DNA from: Chryseobacterium gleum
Lineage (GTDB): Bacteria > Bacteroidota > Bacteroidia > Flavobacteriales_D > Crocinitomicaceae
Direction of reading: 5' to 3'
NCBI GenBank assembly: GCA_945902775.1
Contig: CAMDMY010000001.1
Location: 1 to 64,000 of the forward strand
DNA: 64,000 nt
Within the stretch, counting starts at the first letter, position 1. Each line of letters starts with the position of its first letter. Shown here one piece after another: positions 1-9,818 of this stretch. The notes under the pieces are model-generated. The model was not told the DNA's origin. It searched no databases and was given only the letters and a program-made list of their open reading frames with translations. A program made the position numbers and the translations under genes.

Positions 1-154
1 AGTGATATTGAGAAATACAAAATGTATCTTTATCAGTATTTATTGATATAAATTCTTGATTCATAGAAATAAGCCACTGTTTTATCAATTTACATCCTTC
101 ATTATTGGAATTTGCTACAATTAAAATGTATTTTTTGTTTTTTATAATATTCAT
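1..154 (-). CDS. N-terminal fragment of a candidate ATP-grasp (RiPP/graspetide-type) maturase, cut by the window edge
   Basis: Hand-translated open frame absent from the ORF track: MNIIKNKKYILIVANSNNEGCKLIKQWLISMNQEFISINTDKDTFCISQYH... The pattern (ILI-x-SNSN..-IxxWL-x5-F-xxIN) resembles N-termini of grasp-with-spasm ATP-grasp maturases. Only 51 aa visible. Confidence 0.42.
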   Translation of the reverse strand, partial: MNIIKNKKYILIVANSNNEGCKLIKQWLISMNQEFISINTDKDTFCISQYH

Positions 155-1040
155 AAAGTGGTGTTTTTAATGGTCGAGGTTTAAACCCTCTTTTAAAGAT
201 TAGATGATTCATATTATCAAAATAAGGATCTAAACCTATATTACAACTATTTATAAAAACTAATTCAGGAGACAATGACTGTGAACTATCTACACCAAAA
301 TAGGAATTGTATATCATTCCTGTTTTACAATTTGAACTAACATTAAATCTATCGAAAGCCATTGAAAATGCCAAAGGATCCATTCTTCCTGCCCTAATTT
401 CTGAAATAAATAAATTGTAATTTTTAAATAACCATTCTTTTGATGAATGCAATAAAATAGTCGAGAAAACAGGATGTGCTTGAAAATAACCTCCTGGATA
501 TCCATTCTTTTTGATGTACTTTATGATTTCTACTTGATTTAAGCTATCATTATAGTTCATGTATTTAAATAACATTTTGAAATCTGAATGTGTACTGTCA
601 AAGTCAATTGTTTTTAATTTTTGTCTATATTTTTGATCTCTTGTATGAAGTGTATCATAGAAAATAGTATCTTTTAAAATTGTCCATGAATCATCTTTAG
701 GTAAAGACTCATTGATTTTTAATCTTTCAGTTTTACTCATTCCATTATAAAATGTTGAATCGTTAATAAATGAGAATCTTGCCCCTCCCTTTAACAATAT
801 TTTAATAGATTTTTTTTTATCCCCAATTTCCCATAATGCTCGACTGTATAAATGACTTTCCATTCGGAAAAATTTAAGATTAAAATTTTCAGCTTTTTTA
901 TAATAATAACAAGCTGAATCATAATTTTGTTCATAAAACCAATATGTACCTTCATTTAATACATTTCTGAATGGTATGTAATTTTGAGCAGAATGTTTAA
1001 ATGAAATAAAAACAAAAAATAATATAATAAGGATTTTCAT
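102..1040 (-). CDS. secreted protein with TPR-like N-terminus and DUF6624-like C-terminal region
   Basis: Signal peptide MKILIILFFVFISFKHSAQ; helical YYYKKAENF repeats; 'IIKYIKKNGYPGG...ILLHSS...AGRMDPLAFSMAFDRF' matches the DUF6624 pattern (G-P...HS...G.i.p..a...DR). Confidence 0.55.
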   Translation of the reverse strand: MKILIILFFVFISFKHSAQNYIPFRNVLNEGTYWFYEQNYDSACYYYKKAENFNLKFFRMESHLYSRALWEIGDKKKSIKILLKGGARFSFINDSTFYNGMSKTERLKINESLPKDDSWTILKDTIFYDTLHTRDQKYRQKLKTIDFDSTHSDFKMLFKYMNYNDSLNQVEIIKYIKKNGYPGGYFQAHPVFSTILLHSSKEWLFKNYNLFISEIRAGRMDPLAFSMAFDRFNVSSNCKTGMIYNSYFGVDSSQSLSPELVFINSCNIGLDPYFDNMNHLIFKRGFKPRPLKTPLYEYYKKQKIHFNCSKFQ

Positions 1041-1101
1041 ACTTTAAAGTTAAAATGGAGCGCTTGGTAAACCATGCGCCCCTATAAATATTATGCCTCT
1101 A

Positions 1102-1374
1102 TTAATATCTAGATAGAGTTGAAGATCTTACAGAAATTGTATCTCTCGAAACATATGATTTAATACAAGTATTTATACCATCTATTAACTCAAAATTATA
1201 TGGATTTACTTGTCCATCTCCACCAACTGGCACTTGTAACTCACCTTTTGCAGTCATTAACGCCTCGTCACTACCACCACCGTTAGGTTGAGTAGGTTCA
1301 TATCTATAACCACCTAAAATTTGATCCATTTTAACTTCTCTTGAAGCAAATGCATTTAAACTATTTTTTTTCAT
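1102..1374 (-). CDS. candidate RiPP precursor peptide with double-glycine leader
   Basis: 90 aa: MKKNSLNAFASREVKMDQILGG | YRYEPTQPNGGGSDEAL...; short, polar leader ending in LGG, first gene of a minus-strand cluster. Confidence 0.5.
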   Translation of the reverse strand: MKKNSLNAFASREVKMDQILGGYRYEPTQPNGGGSDEALMTAKGELQVPVGGDGQVNPYNFELIDGINTCIKSYVSRDTISVRSSTLSRY

Positions 1375-2945: not shown

Positions 2946-4142
2946 TTAATAATTCAAACCAAATGCCCATAATGGAATGACATTCATATAACCATATTCA
3001 ATATCATCTTTTACAATAAATGACTTTCCATCTTTGTCAATTTGAGATTGTTTTTTATTCTTTCCCCCCACTTCAAAAGTAAATTCATTGATTGAAAAAT
3101 CGGCTTTTTTTGAACTGATAACTTCATAGTTCAATCGCATCTGATTAAAGAAAAATGTTTCACGAATATTACCAATATTTGATTTATCCGCTACAAGATT
3201 AAAAATGATATTGGTATTATCTAAATATACTTTATCAATTTTGCCTAATCCTCTTAATCCATTTGTTTCTGTTCTTAATTGCGCTATTAATCCAGCCTTT
3301 TCTATAAATGAAAAATAATCATCGAGTGAATTTCTACTAACACCAATAATTTCGGCAATTTTTGTGAAATTTGGTTTAAATGGAACACTTTCTGCAATAA
3401 TGGAAAGTAGGCGTTTCAATTTTCTACTAGTTCCAACATTTAAATTTGCAAATTGAGGAATATCAATTTCTAAAGTTTGAACGATGATTTGCCCAAGCCT
3501 TAAGTTTAATTCATTTTCTATTCCAAATGGATAATAACCTCTCCTTAAATAATCGTTAAACAAAGGTAAAGGGTGTTTTATTTGATCTAGTTTTATTTCA
3601 TTATGAATGATTTGATCTAGAGAATAAACACCGATATTGTAATTATGAAATAAATTCAAATATTCTCTAAATGATAATCCTTGTAGATTATACATTAAAG
3701 CTCTACGACTTAAATCTGCCGAACCTTTTAATATATCTAAAACCGAAGAACCAGTAAAGATAATTTTTAATGAAGGATAAGAGTCATATATGTTTTTTAG
3801 TTCTCTCGACCAATTTTCATATTTATGAACCTCATCTATTAATAAATATTCACCTCCATTTTTATAAAAAGTATCGGCAACATCTATTAATTTGTTTTCA
3901 CCAAAATACAAGTCATCAGCAGAAACATACAACGCTTTTTTAGTATCAAGATTTTCTTTCACGTATTGAAGAATCAAAGTCGTTTTACCAACTCCTCGTG
4001 GACCAATGACACCAATCATTCTACTTCCCCAAGCAATTTGAGAGTATAAATATCTTTTGAAAGTAAGCGAAGTACTATCTAATAAAATTTCAAATTTCTG
4101 ATAAAGAGCCTCCATAACAATGATTTTTTTACAAATATACAA
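2946..4142 (-). CDS. stand-alone AAA ATPase (AAA_14/DUF4143-like)
   Basis: Walker A GPRGVGKTTLILQY, Walker B YLLIDEVHKYENW, sensor IIFTGSSVLDI. Likely start is the internal Met (MEALYQKF). Confidence 0.85.
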   Translation of the reverse strand: MYICKKIIVMEALYQKFEILLDSTSLTFKRYLYSQIAWGSRMIGVIGPRGVGKTTLILQYVKENLDTKKALYVSADDLYFGENKLIDVADTFYKNGGEYLLIDEVHKYENWSRELKNIYDSYPSLKIIFTGSSVLDILKGSADLSRRALMYNLQGLSFREYLNLFHNYNIGVYSLDQIIHNEIKLDQIKHPLPLFNDYLRRGYYPFGIENELNLRLGQIIVQTLEIDIPQFANLNVGTSRKLKRLLSIIAESVPFKPNFTKIAEIIGVSRNSLDDYFSFIEKAGLIAQLRTETNGLRGLGKIDKVYLDNTNIIFNLVADKSNIGNIRETFFFNQMRLNYEVISSKKADFSINEFTFEVGGKNKKQSQIDKDGKSFIVKDDIEYGYMNVIPLWAFGLNY

Positions 4143-5282: not shown

Positions 5283-8200
5283 ATGAGAATTTTAATTTTA
5301 TTCACCTTTCTAATTCAAATCGTTTTTGCTCAAGAAATTGATTCTTTAACACCCATTTTTCCAGTTGCGAAAAAGGTTCCTTACTTTTTTGTTACACATG
5401 GTGATTCTGTTGCTCAGCCTTACAATTGGATGAGGGAGAAAAACACACCCGACATTATCAATTATTTGTCTGAAGAGAACACGTATGGTGATGTTCAGAT
5501 GAAATCATCGGCTATTTTACAAAAAAAGATTTTTGAAGAAATGCGTGGCTTGATGAAAGAAAATCATACTTCACGCCCAAGTAAATTAGATAATTATTTC
5601 TACTATTCAAGAAATGAAGAAGGGAAAGAACATGCGATCCAATGTCGTAAAAAAGATAGTTTAACAGCCAAAGAAGAAATCATTTTAGACCCCAATAAAC
5701 AGGCCGAAGAATTTGGGTATTTTCAACTTTCAGGTTTAGATTTATCTGATGACCATACTTTATTAGCTTATTCAGTTAATACAGAAGGTGGAGATTTTGG
5801 TACTTTGTGTGTCAAGAATATCGCTAAAGACAGTGTATTCAAAGACAGAATAACGCAAGTAGGAAGTTTTATTTTATTGAAAGATAATTTAACGATTTAC
5901 TATTTAAAGAAAGACCCAAAAACCAAGTTGGGTAATCAATTGTTTAAACACATTATTGGCACAGATACACTAACCGACCAGTTAATTTTTGAGAGGACAG
6001 AAGGAAGTGGGTATTTAAACATTAGTTTATCTGAAAGTAAACGATTCTTATTTATTTCTACTTCGTTTATGGGCTGGACAGGTGATATTTATGCCATTGA
6101 TTTAGAATCAGATGAAAAAACATTAGTCAAAATTATTACGGGAGAAAAAGGAGTTACTTCTGCCTTAAGTCATTCTAAAGGGGATTATTTTGAATTATTT
6201 ACAAATAAGAATGCTCCAGATTATTTGATTAAAGAAATTGAAATAAAGAATTTAAAAAATGAACGTATTTTAATTCCTGAAGTAAAAGGAGCTAAACTAA
6301 ATTCATACTCTGAAAAAGGAGATTACATGATTGTTGAACGTTTAACAAATGGACTAAATGAACTTTCAATTATCAACAAGAAAACGAAAACGAAAAAAAT
6401 TCTCGAAGGTCAGGAAAAGGTGGGTGTTATTGGTTTGTCAAATGAATTAAAATACGATAGTACATCAATTGAATATTCGTTTACCTCTTTAATCACTCCT
6501 ACAATTATTTTTAAATACAATTTAGAGAAAGACAGTAGCGCAATTATTTGGAGAGATACAGTTCCAAAATATGATCCTCTTTTATTTAAAACGGAACGTG
6601 TTTGGGCTTCTTCAAGAGATGGAAAGAAAATACCGATTGATTTGGTATACAAAAAATCATTGAAACGTGATGGTAAAAATCCACTTTATATAACAGCTTA
6701 TGCTTGTTATGGAATGAACCAAGAGCCGGATTTTAATAAAAGTTTCTTGCCGTATTTGAATCGAAATTTTGTGTGTGCTATTGCGCATCCAAGAGGTGAA
6801 AGTTTATTAGGAAAGTCATGGCACGACGATGGGAAAATGATGAAAAAGCAAAACACAATCAATGACTTTGTGGACTGTACGCAATCGTTGATTGATTCTG
6901 CTTATACGATGCCGAAGAAAATTGTAGCACAAGGTGGAAGTGCCGGTGGATTATTAATGGGAGGTGTAGCCAATGCTAAACCTGAGATATATGGTGCAAT
7001 CATAGCGGATGTCCCTTTTGTGAACACATTAGAAGATATGTTAGATACACTTTGGCCAAATATTAAATACCATTTTGATGAAATCGGAAATCCGTATAAA
7101 AAGAAAGAATATGACTATATAAAATCGTATAGTCCGTTACACAATATTACGCAAAAAGAGTATCCAAATATGTTGGTAACAAATGGTTATAATGATAGTC
7201 GTGTTCCATTTTGGGCTGCTGCACAATACGTTGCTCGTTTAAGAGATATGAAAACGGATACGAATCTACTCTTGTTAAAAACATCGATGGAGGGTGGTCA
7301 CGGAGGTTCATCGGGTAGGTATTCTGGTATCAAAGAAGAAGCTTTTAAAATTGCTTTTGCCATGCAATCAGTTGGTGTAAAGGAAGATTATTTAGCCGTT
7401 TCAGGAAAAGTAGTGGATGTCGATGGAGATGCCATACCTTATGCCAACGTATTCGTTGAAGGAAGTTCAAATGGGACAGTTACCAATTTCGACGGAGATT
7501 TTTATTTAGAAATTAAAGGAGGACAAAAATTAGCCCTTGTCTTTCAAACATTTGGATTTAAAAAACAAGTCCTTCCGATAGGTGCAAAAACGAAGATTAC
7601 AGATATGAAAGTGGTAATGTCTTCTGAATCAAAAGCATTGGAAGAGGTAACAGTTGCAGTAAAAGCTAAAAATAGAGGAAATGAAATTATTCGAAAAGCC
7701 AATGCACAAATGGAGCATTATGATAAAATGTTGGATAATTATTCAGTTGATATTTATATCAAAGGGGTAGAACGTTTTGATTCTGTTCCAAAGAAATTAC
7801 CCGCATTTTTGAAAAAAGCTGAATTACCAGATTCTAACGATATAGGATTAATGTATTTGTCTGAATCGGTTTCAAGGTACAATTATAAACGTCCGGATGA
7901 TTACAAAGAAGAAATGCTCTCCTCAAAAGTAGCAGGTTCAAAACAAGGGATGAGTTGGAACAGAGTAAAAAATCTAGAATATAATTTTTACAAAAATAAT
8001 TTAACCGGATTATCCGAAAAACCATTTATTTCACCTATTGCCGATGGAGGAATCTTATTATATAAATACCATTTAGAATCTAAAATTATTGAAGACGGAA
8101 ACAATGTATATAAAATAAAAGTCACACCAAGAAACAAGGCGGAAGCGGTTTTTGAAGGATATGTTTACATCAACGATAAAACGTGGAGCATTCACAGTGT

Positions 8201-9818
8201 CGATTTATTTGTAACGAAAAGTTCAGGAATTGAATTTTTAGATACGATGTATATTCGTCAAACGTATGGCATTGTGAATGACTCAATTAGTACACCTCGT
8301 TCCACTTCCATTCGTCAGAAATACAAATTTTTCGGTTTCAAAGTAAGTTATTTAGAAGTCGGTTCTTTTTACAATTACCAATTCAACAAAAAATTTCCAA
8401 AACGATTCTTTCAAAAACAAGTCTTTTCAGTAGCTGAAGATGCAGTTAAAAAAGACACTGCTTATTGGAAAGAAAATCGTCCGGTGGTTTTAACAGAGGA
8501 AGAGAGTAAATACTATTCAAAACTAGACACGGTTAAACAATATGATTATTTCAATGATTTTTCAGATTCAACAAGGAAGAAAAGAAATAAAGTGACAATT
8601 GAAAAACTTTTACTGAATGGATATACCTACACGTACAAAAGAAATTCTATAGGTATGGATGGATTAATAGCGAATCCAGGTTACAACACCATTGAAGGAT
8701 TAAAAACAGAATTAAATTTCAATTTCAGGCATAGTATGATTGATTCAGCTAGTTGGTTTCAACGCAATGATTTCTATCTGAACTCTAGTTTGCGTTATGG
8801 ATTTTCATCTAAAAAATTGTATTCCTCACTTTCAGGAGGTAGATACAATAGTTCAGAACAGCGAGGATGGAATGTTGGAGTATACAATTACATCTATCAA
8901 TTCAATGAGTCAAGACCAATTATGGATATTGTCAATGCTGGATATTCCTTATTGATGCGTCAAAATTTCATGAAGTTGTACGAAAAAACCAGTATAGGAT
9001 TTTTGTATTATGATGTGTTAAAATTTGGACCGAAGATTAATTTAAGTATGAGTTATTCGCAAAGAAAAGCGTTGAAGAATAATGAGGATTGGTATTTGCT
9101 TCCGGATATAAAAGATCAAACAACTTCCAATAATCCGTTGATGCCATTATCTGATTCAATTGCATTTAAAACGAATAATGCGTTTTTATTTAAATTCAGT
9201 GGTTCTTACACTTTTGGAGAGCGATTTGAATTGATTCATAATTTCAGAAGAGTAATAGGTTCTCGTTATCCAACTGTTTATTGGAATTTCGAACAAGGGA
9301 TAAAAGCACTTGGTGGAGATGTAGGTTTTGGTCGATATCAAGTTGGAATTGGTAAATCGTTTAAGTTAGGATATTGGGGGAAATCAAATTTAGATATTAT
9401 AGCCGGTGGTTTCATCAATAATTCTAGTATGTACTTTATGGATTACAAACATTTCAATGGAAATCAAACGTTGTTTTTAAAAAATGGAACTGAGAATTGG
9501 GGTGGTAGAAATCAGTTGAATAGTTACAATGCGTTGGATTATTATTCATTCAGTACCAATTCGAATTATATAGAAATTCATTACCAACATCGTTTTTTAG
9601 GATTGTTTTTAACGAAATTTCCATTGCTAAATAAATTACACCTGGAAGAAGTTGCCGGATTTAACGGTGCATATACTTCAGGAAATAGAAATTACCAAGA
9701 AATCTATGTAGGAATTGAAAACATTGCTAAAATGTTTAGAATTGATTTTGTAGCAAATTACAAAGTAAACGATGTAATCAAACCTTTGATTCGAATTGGA
9801 GTCAAAAAGAGAATATAG
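5283..9818 (+). CDS. fusion: S9A prolyl oligopeptidase/oligopeptidase B plus carboxypeptidase-regulatory-like domain plus DUF5686 outer-membrane region
   Basis: Catalytic motifs QGGSAGGLLMGGVAN, NGYNDSRVPFWAA, MEGGHGGSSGRY; then VSGKVVDVDGDAIPYANVFVEGSSNGTVTNFDGDF and a DUF5686-like barrel. Single 1511-aa frame. Confidence 0.8.
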   Translation: MRILILFTFLIQIVFAQEIDSLTPIFPVAKKVPYFFVTHGDSVAQPYNWMREKNTPDIINYLSEENTYGDVQMKSSAILQKKIFEEMRGLMKENHTSRPSKLDNYFYYSRNEEGKEHAIQCRKKDSLTAKEEIILDPNKQAEEFGYFQLSGLDLSDDHTLLAYSVNTEGGDFGTLCVKNIAKDSVFKDRITQVGSFILLKDNLTIYYLKKDPKTKLGNQLFKHIIGTDTLTDQLIFERTEGSGYLNISLSESKRFLFISTSFMGWTGDIYAIDLESDEKTLVKIITGEKGVTSALSHSKGDYFELFTNKNAPDYLIKEIEIKNLKNERILIPEVKGAKLNSYSEKGDYMIVERLTNGLNELSIINKKTKTKKILEGQEKVGVIGLSNELKYDSTSIEYSFTSLITPTIIFKYNLEKDSSAIIWRDTVPKYDPLLFKTERVWASSRDGKKIPIDLVYKKSLKRDGKNPLYITAYACYGMNQEPDFNKSFLPYLNRNFVCAIAHPRGESLLGKSWHDDGKMMKKQNTINDFVDCTQSLIDSAYTMPKKIVAQGGSAGGLLMGGVANAKPEIYGAIIADVPFVNTLEDMLDTLWPNIKYHFDEIGNPYKKKEYDYIKSYSPLHNITQKEYPNMLVTNGYNDSRVPFWAAAQYVARLRDMKTDTNLLLLKTSMEGGHGGSSGRYSGIKEEAFKIAFAMQSVGVKEDYLAVSGKVVDVDGDAIPYANVFVEGSSNGTVTNFDGDFYLEIKGGQKLALVFQTFGFKKQVLPIGAKTKITDMKVVMSSESKALEEVTVAVKAKNRGNEIIRKANAQMEHYDKMLDNYSVDIYIKGVERFDSVPKKLPAFLKKAELPDSNDIGLMYLSESVSRYNYKRPDDYKEEMLSSKVAGSKQGMSWNRVKNLEYNFYKNNLTGLSEKPFISPIADGGILLYKYHLESKIIEDGNNVYKIKVTPRNKAEAVFEGYVYINDKTWSIHSVDLFVTKSSGIEFLDTMYIRQTYGIVNDSISTPRSTSIRQKYKFFGFKVSYLEVGSFYNYQFNKKFPKRFFQKQVFSVAEDAVKKDTAYWKENRPVVLTEEESKYYSKLDTVKQYDYFNDFSDSTRKKRNKVTIEKLLLNGYTYTYKRNSIGMDGLIANPGYNTIEGLKTELNFNFRHSMIDSASWFQRNDFYLNSSLRYGFSSKKLYSSLSGGRYNSSEQRGWNVGVYNYIYQFNESRPIMDIVNAGYSLLMRQNFMKLYEKTSIGFLYYDVLKFGPKINLSMSYSQRKALKNNEDWYLLPDIKDQTTSNNPLMPLSDSIAFKTNNAFLFKFSGSYTFGERFELIHNFRRVIGSRYPTVYWNFEQGIKALGGDVGFGRYQVGIGKSFKLGYWGKSNLDIIAGGFINNSSMYFMDYKHFNGNQTLFLKNGTENWGGRNQLNSYNALDYYSFSTNSNYIEIHYQHRFLGLFLTKFPLLNKLHLEEVAGFNGAYTSGNRNYQEIYVGIENIAKMFRIDFVANYKVNDVIKPLIRIGVKKRI

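Follow-up and report, generated by a model that had tools for sequence, protein, structure and literature searches.

Probable 5' end of a grasp-with-spasm graspetide operon with an exported DUF6624-like protein at a contig end of a Crocinitomicaceae bacterium

Graspetide branch 5 was defined by Makarova et al. 2022 as ATP-grasp loci of Bacteroidetes that encode a SPASM protein and precursors with a GG motif. These loci also encode a family of exported proteins or lipoproteins whose function is not known (cluster 23) and, before the SPASM gene, a small LPL protein (PMC8939145). A SPASM-associated group of graspetides, group 14, was described by Carter et al. 2026, who found DUF6624 to be highly frequent in groups 18, 20, 23 and 42 and did not report this high frequency for group 14 (PMC13097080). 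Going by its description, cluster 23 probably corresponds to the DUF6624-like family. This family is among the commonest in graspetide clusters, and its role is the main point of wider interest here.

The stretch of DNA analyzed, hereafter the window, comprises bases 1-64000 of contig C1 (94,378 bases, in an assembly of 168 contigs), and its base 1 is the end of that contig. The locus at this end is very probably the 5' end of a grasp-with-spasm operon (graspetide branch 5, probable group 14) of a Crocinitomicaceae bacterium, because the genes seen here, for a GG-leader precursor, an exported DUF6624-like protein and the start of an ATP-grasp, match the order and overlap found in the complete operons of relatives. 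The three minus-strand ORFs named by an earlier sequence-only reading were recovered at the coordinates given there. They encode a RiPP precursor of 90 aa (1374-1102), an exported DUF6624-like protein of 312 aa (1040-102) and, running off the contig, the N-terminal 51 aa of a probable ATP-grasp maturase of the grasp-with-spasm type (154-2). Since base 1 is the contig end, the last of these is severed by the assembly, and the locus is indeed cut at its left edge as had been claimed. A divergent XRE-type HTH regulator of 72 aa lies on the plus strand (1774-1992; HTH_3, E 6e-9), and ORFs in similar positions adjoin the operon at the relatives' loci L047 and L055. Promoter and terminator scans gave results at about chance level; Bacteroidota-type TAnnTTTG sites were present without a clear -33 element, and a single sub-threshold Rfam match, inside a coding region, was taken as chance. 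Further along the plus strand of the window, a 1511-aa ORF (5283-9818) combines a Peptidase_S9 prolyl oligopeptidase (28-698) with CarbopepD_reg_2 (706-791) and DUF5686 (802-1478), a fusion that looks unusual.

The precursor consists of a 22-aa leader, MKKNSLNAFASREVKMDQILGG, which ends in LGG (codons 1374-1309), and a core of 68 aa that includes the segment GGGSDEALMTAKGE. A leader of the form MKKN...F...GG and a T/S...DE...T segment are common to this precursor and those of L048, L049, L055 and L047. Searches of the precursor against Pfam and NCBIfam returned no usable family and matched no listed precursor family. The nearest relatives of both the window precursor and the window DUF6624-like protein lie in one place, the first precursor-DUF pair of genome G013.

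The DUF6624-like protein shares 47% identity with its G013 homologue and has a hydrophobic signal peptide followed by an N-terminal helical repeat-like part. Its assignment to DUF6624 holds at the profile-profile level, where a profile based on the window protein aligned with the true DUF6624 profile over 266 columns (hhalign probability 98.5%, E 3e-15), but not by Pfam's own DUF6624 model (PF20329), which found nothing at E values up to 1 and so nothing at the gathering cut-off; NCBIfam offered no usable family. The match covers most of the length, and DQxxR, DSxN, H and DR motifs are common to both. The window protein differs from DUF6624 proper in lying below Pfam detection and in sitting in the slot between precursor and ATP-grasp. 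An AlphaFold2 model built from eight sequences is predicted to be all-helical at low confidence (pLDDT 58.5), and a fold search of the PDB with it yielded nothing at E <= 0.001; its best hits, 14-3-3 helical proteins, had a TM of ~0.2. We therefore claim no fold for this protein. The window genome also encodes a separate, true DUF6624 protein above the Pfam cut-off (G000:C38:16870-17244; L139 4352-5326), and no RiPP genes were seen among its neighbors on contig C38.

Relatives were sought in 200 genomes sampled from the family Crocinitomicaceae, using the DUF protein and the peptide as separate queries. Both searches converged on the same loci (genome and contig G013:C28, G178:C158, G098:C499, G064:C33 and G030:C67). 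The gene order in these relatives is precursor, DUF6624-like protein, ATP-grasp (TIGR04192), small protein, SPASM protein (TIGR04193), C39-peptidase ABC exporter, HlyD and TolC, the G098 contig being too short to reach the exporter genes. The layout that had been proposed for the window, with precursor, DUF6624-like protein, ATP-grasp, SPASM protein and C39 transporter, is thus present at the homologous place in members of the same family. TIGR04193 scored above its cut-off in the relatives' operons and TIGR04192 near or above it; in G178, for instance, the SPASM protein reached 203.6 bits (cut-off 175) and the ATP-grasp 222.6 bits, slightly under the cut-off of 230. The SPASM protein of the relatives had no match to Pfam radical-SAM, so that radical chemistry of this protein is not assured. 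In the pathway expected for systems of this family, the ATP-grasp would link Ser, Thr or Lys side chains to acidic ones in the core, releasing water; the SPASM protein, together with its small partner, would assist or modify the peptide further; and the C39-peptidase ABC transporter would cleave after the GG and export the core with HlyD and TolC.

Compared with branch 5 (grasp-with-spasm, TIGR04192/TIGR04193), the window itself shares the GG-leader precursor, the exported protein of cluster-23 type and the ATP-grasp, while the small protein before the SPASM gene, the SPASM protein, the C39 ABC transporter and HlyD are seen in the relatives, whose operons carry the first three as well. The window differs from branch 5 in being truncated and in having a precursor outside the listed families. 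With group 14 the shared features are the ATP-grasp, the SPASM-domain protein and the peptidase-type transporter; the difference is that no high DUF6624 frequency is reported for that group. Proteins of the window type have diverged beyond the reach of the Pfam model, which may account for this difference. The layout of such loci is already published (PMC8939145; PMC13097080), and the window is a truncated further example.

Small unrelated ORFs could in principle mimic a RiPP locus by chance, the more so as the ATP-grasp piece is merely 51 aa long and its TIGR04192 score falls far under the cut-off (E 0.004 over profile positions 1-39 of 318; 16.5 bits against 230). Leave-out HMMs, built from relatives only with the window excluded, were used to search the complete set of 842 stop-to-stop ORFs in the window. 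The precursor model selected ORF 1374-1102 as its best match (E 7e-10; runner-up E 1.1), bearing out the claim of a 90-aa peptide with an LGG leader. The DUF-like model selected ORF 1040-102 (E 1.5e-71; runner-up E 0.41) and the ATP-grasp model ORF 154-2 (E 8.5e-5; runner-up E 0.44). Three independent models thus pick out exactly these ORFs, ordered as in the relatives, and together with the relatives' gene order and the convergence of the DUF and peptide searches on the same loci they speak strongly against the chance reading, to which we assign a near-negligible probability. As far as sequence comparison goes, the earlier reading of the locus is supported in substance.

The proposal that the 154-2 product resembles the N-terminus of grasp-with-spasm maturases was supported by the HMM searches, weakly with TIGR04192 and more clearly with the leave-out model. 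Over the aligned N-terminus, the product is 35-36% identical to the ATP-grasps of L047 and L055. Its ORF overlaps that of the DUF6624-like protein by 53 nt, and in four relatives the corresponding overlap is 41-95 nt. The rest of the 168-contig assembly contained no remainder of the ATP-grasp and no other such protein by TIGR04192. Within the same assembly, a TIGR04193 (SPASM_w_grasp) search found nothing, an ABC transporter search found no protein that aligned with the query's C39 part, and an HlyD search gave no close match, just a weak one; a plasmid search with the 51-aa piece had no match. With no maturases or exporter elsewhere in the assembly, either the assembly lacks the rest of the operon or the genome does.

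Alternatively, the window might hold only an upstream precursor-DUF cassette with a decayed ATP-grasp stub at its end, in which case a working maturase, if any, would lie further left past another cassette. Such decay has precedents among the relatives. At L124 an upstream cassette carries a frame-shifted ATP-grasp relic (3250-3979) with a C39 fragment after it, and an intact operon lies downstream; L123 carries a short possible ATP-grasp stub; and behind the closest DUF homologue (L047, 47%) comes a 53-aa ORF that resembles only an ATP-grasp start, in a part that overlaps the DUF gene. In the window, however, the frame remains open, and the ATP-grasp similarity (profile 2-38) continues beyond the DUF overlap to the final codons without a change of frame, which makes a decayed stub improbable. 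The window strain likely has an intact ATP-grasp maturase, which we put as likely rather than certain because of the decayed copy at L124 and the possible stub at L123.

Across the sampled family, TIGR04192 was present in 32 of the 200 genomes. A DUF6624-like protein lay directly upstream of the ATP-grasp at 24 of the 54 places examined, and at several of the remaining places another exported protein fills the slot. Other exported-looking proteins between precursor and ATP-grasp were noted at L099 (11409-12299), L102 (7191-7934) and L109 (6800-7543); judged by eye, one resembles an SGNH hydrolase and others resemble proteins of GLPGLI type. The fetched stretches of seven DUF-like loci (L051-L054, L056, L057 and L062; L051-L053 being Brumimicrobium contigs) contained no ATP-grasp gene, and their DUF6624-like genes are possibly orphan immunity genes. 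AAA_14/DUF4143 ATPase genes were also seen near DUF6624-like genes, by Pfam in the window (2946-4142, minus strand), L047 (12771-13787) and L052 (2393-3607), and in L053 (11856-13070) by the likeness of its start to that of L052; this proximity is possibly due merely to the commonness of such ATPases.

Several observations bear on what the DUF6624-like protein does. G013, G064 and G047 each have two precursor-DUF pairs ahead of a single full ATP-grasp gene, and such pairs duplicate as units. Core peptides were tracked better by the DUF6624-like protein than by the ATP-grasp: with ATP-grasp distance controlled, core distance correlated with DUF distance over 10 dissimilar loci (partial r 0.65, permutation p 0.0006), a result to be read with the small sample in mind and with the tendency of such partial Mantel tests to overstate significance. 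By a simple heuristic test of hydrophobicity, the N-terminus is hydrophobic and of export type in almost all upstream proteins whose start is complete, and some of these proteins have lipoprotein cysteine motifs.

For DUF6624 in other groups of graspetides, Carter et al. propose a new class of peptide-tailoring enzyme. Its high frequency in graspetide clusters (PMC13097080, PMC8939145) and the conserved residues in alignments, e.g. His and Asp/Arg, would fit such a role. Against it, signal-peptide-like N-termini and some lipoprotein cysteines (PMC8939145) place the protein outside the cytoplasm, where leader-dependent enzymes act, and different exported proteins occupy the same slot in some operons; we consider a tailoring enzyme rather unlikely. 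Because of the correlation between core and DUF protein, and because export signals disfavor a cytoplasmic enzyme, we tentatively propose, with somewhat less than even confidence, that the DUF6624-like protein is an extracytoplasmic partner specific to its own peptide and not a cytoplasmic tailoring enzyme. Of the roles open to such a partner, we infer immunity to be the most likely, a receptor or carrier being less likely. It is possible, though less likely than not, that the protein is a dedicated immunity or receptor protein of its own graspetide, and that precursor-DUF pairs act as exchangeable, bacteriocin-immunity-like cassettes that have a single set of maturases and a single exporter in common.

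The window locus alone changes little, as it is a truncated case of a published operon type. Export, pairwise duplication and the core correlation favor an extracytoplasmic, peptide-specific role of the DUF6624-like protein over the biosynthetic-enzyme role proposed in the literature. If true, the immunity or receptor reading would give the DUF6624-type proteins of graspetide clusters a function.
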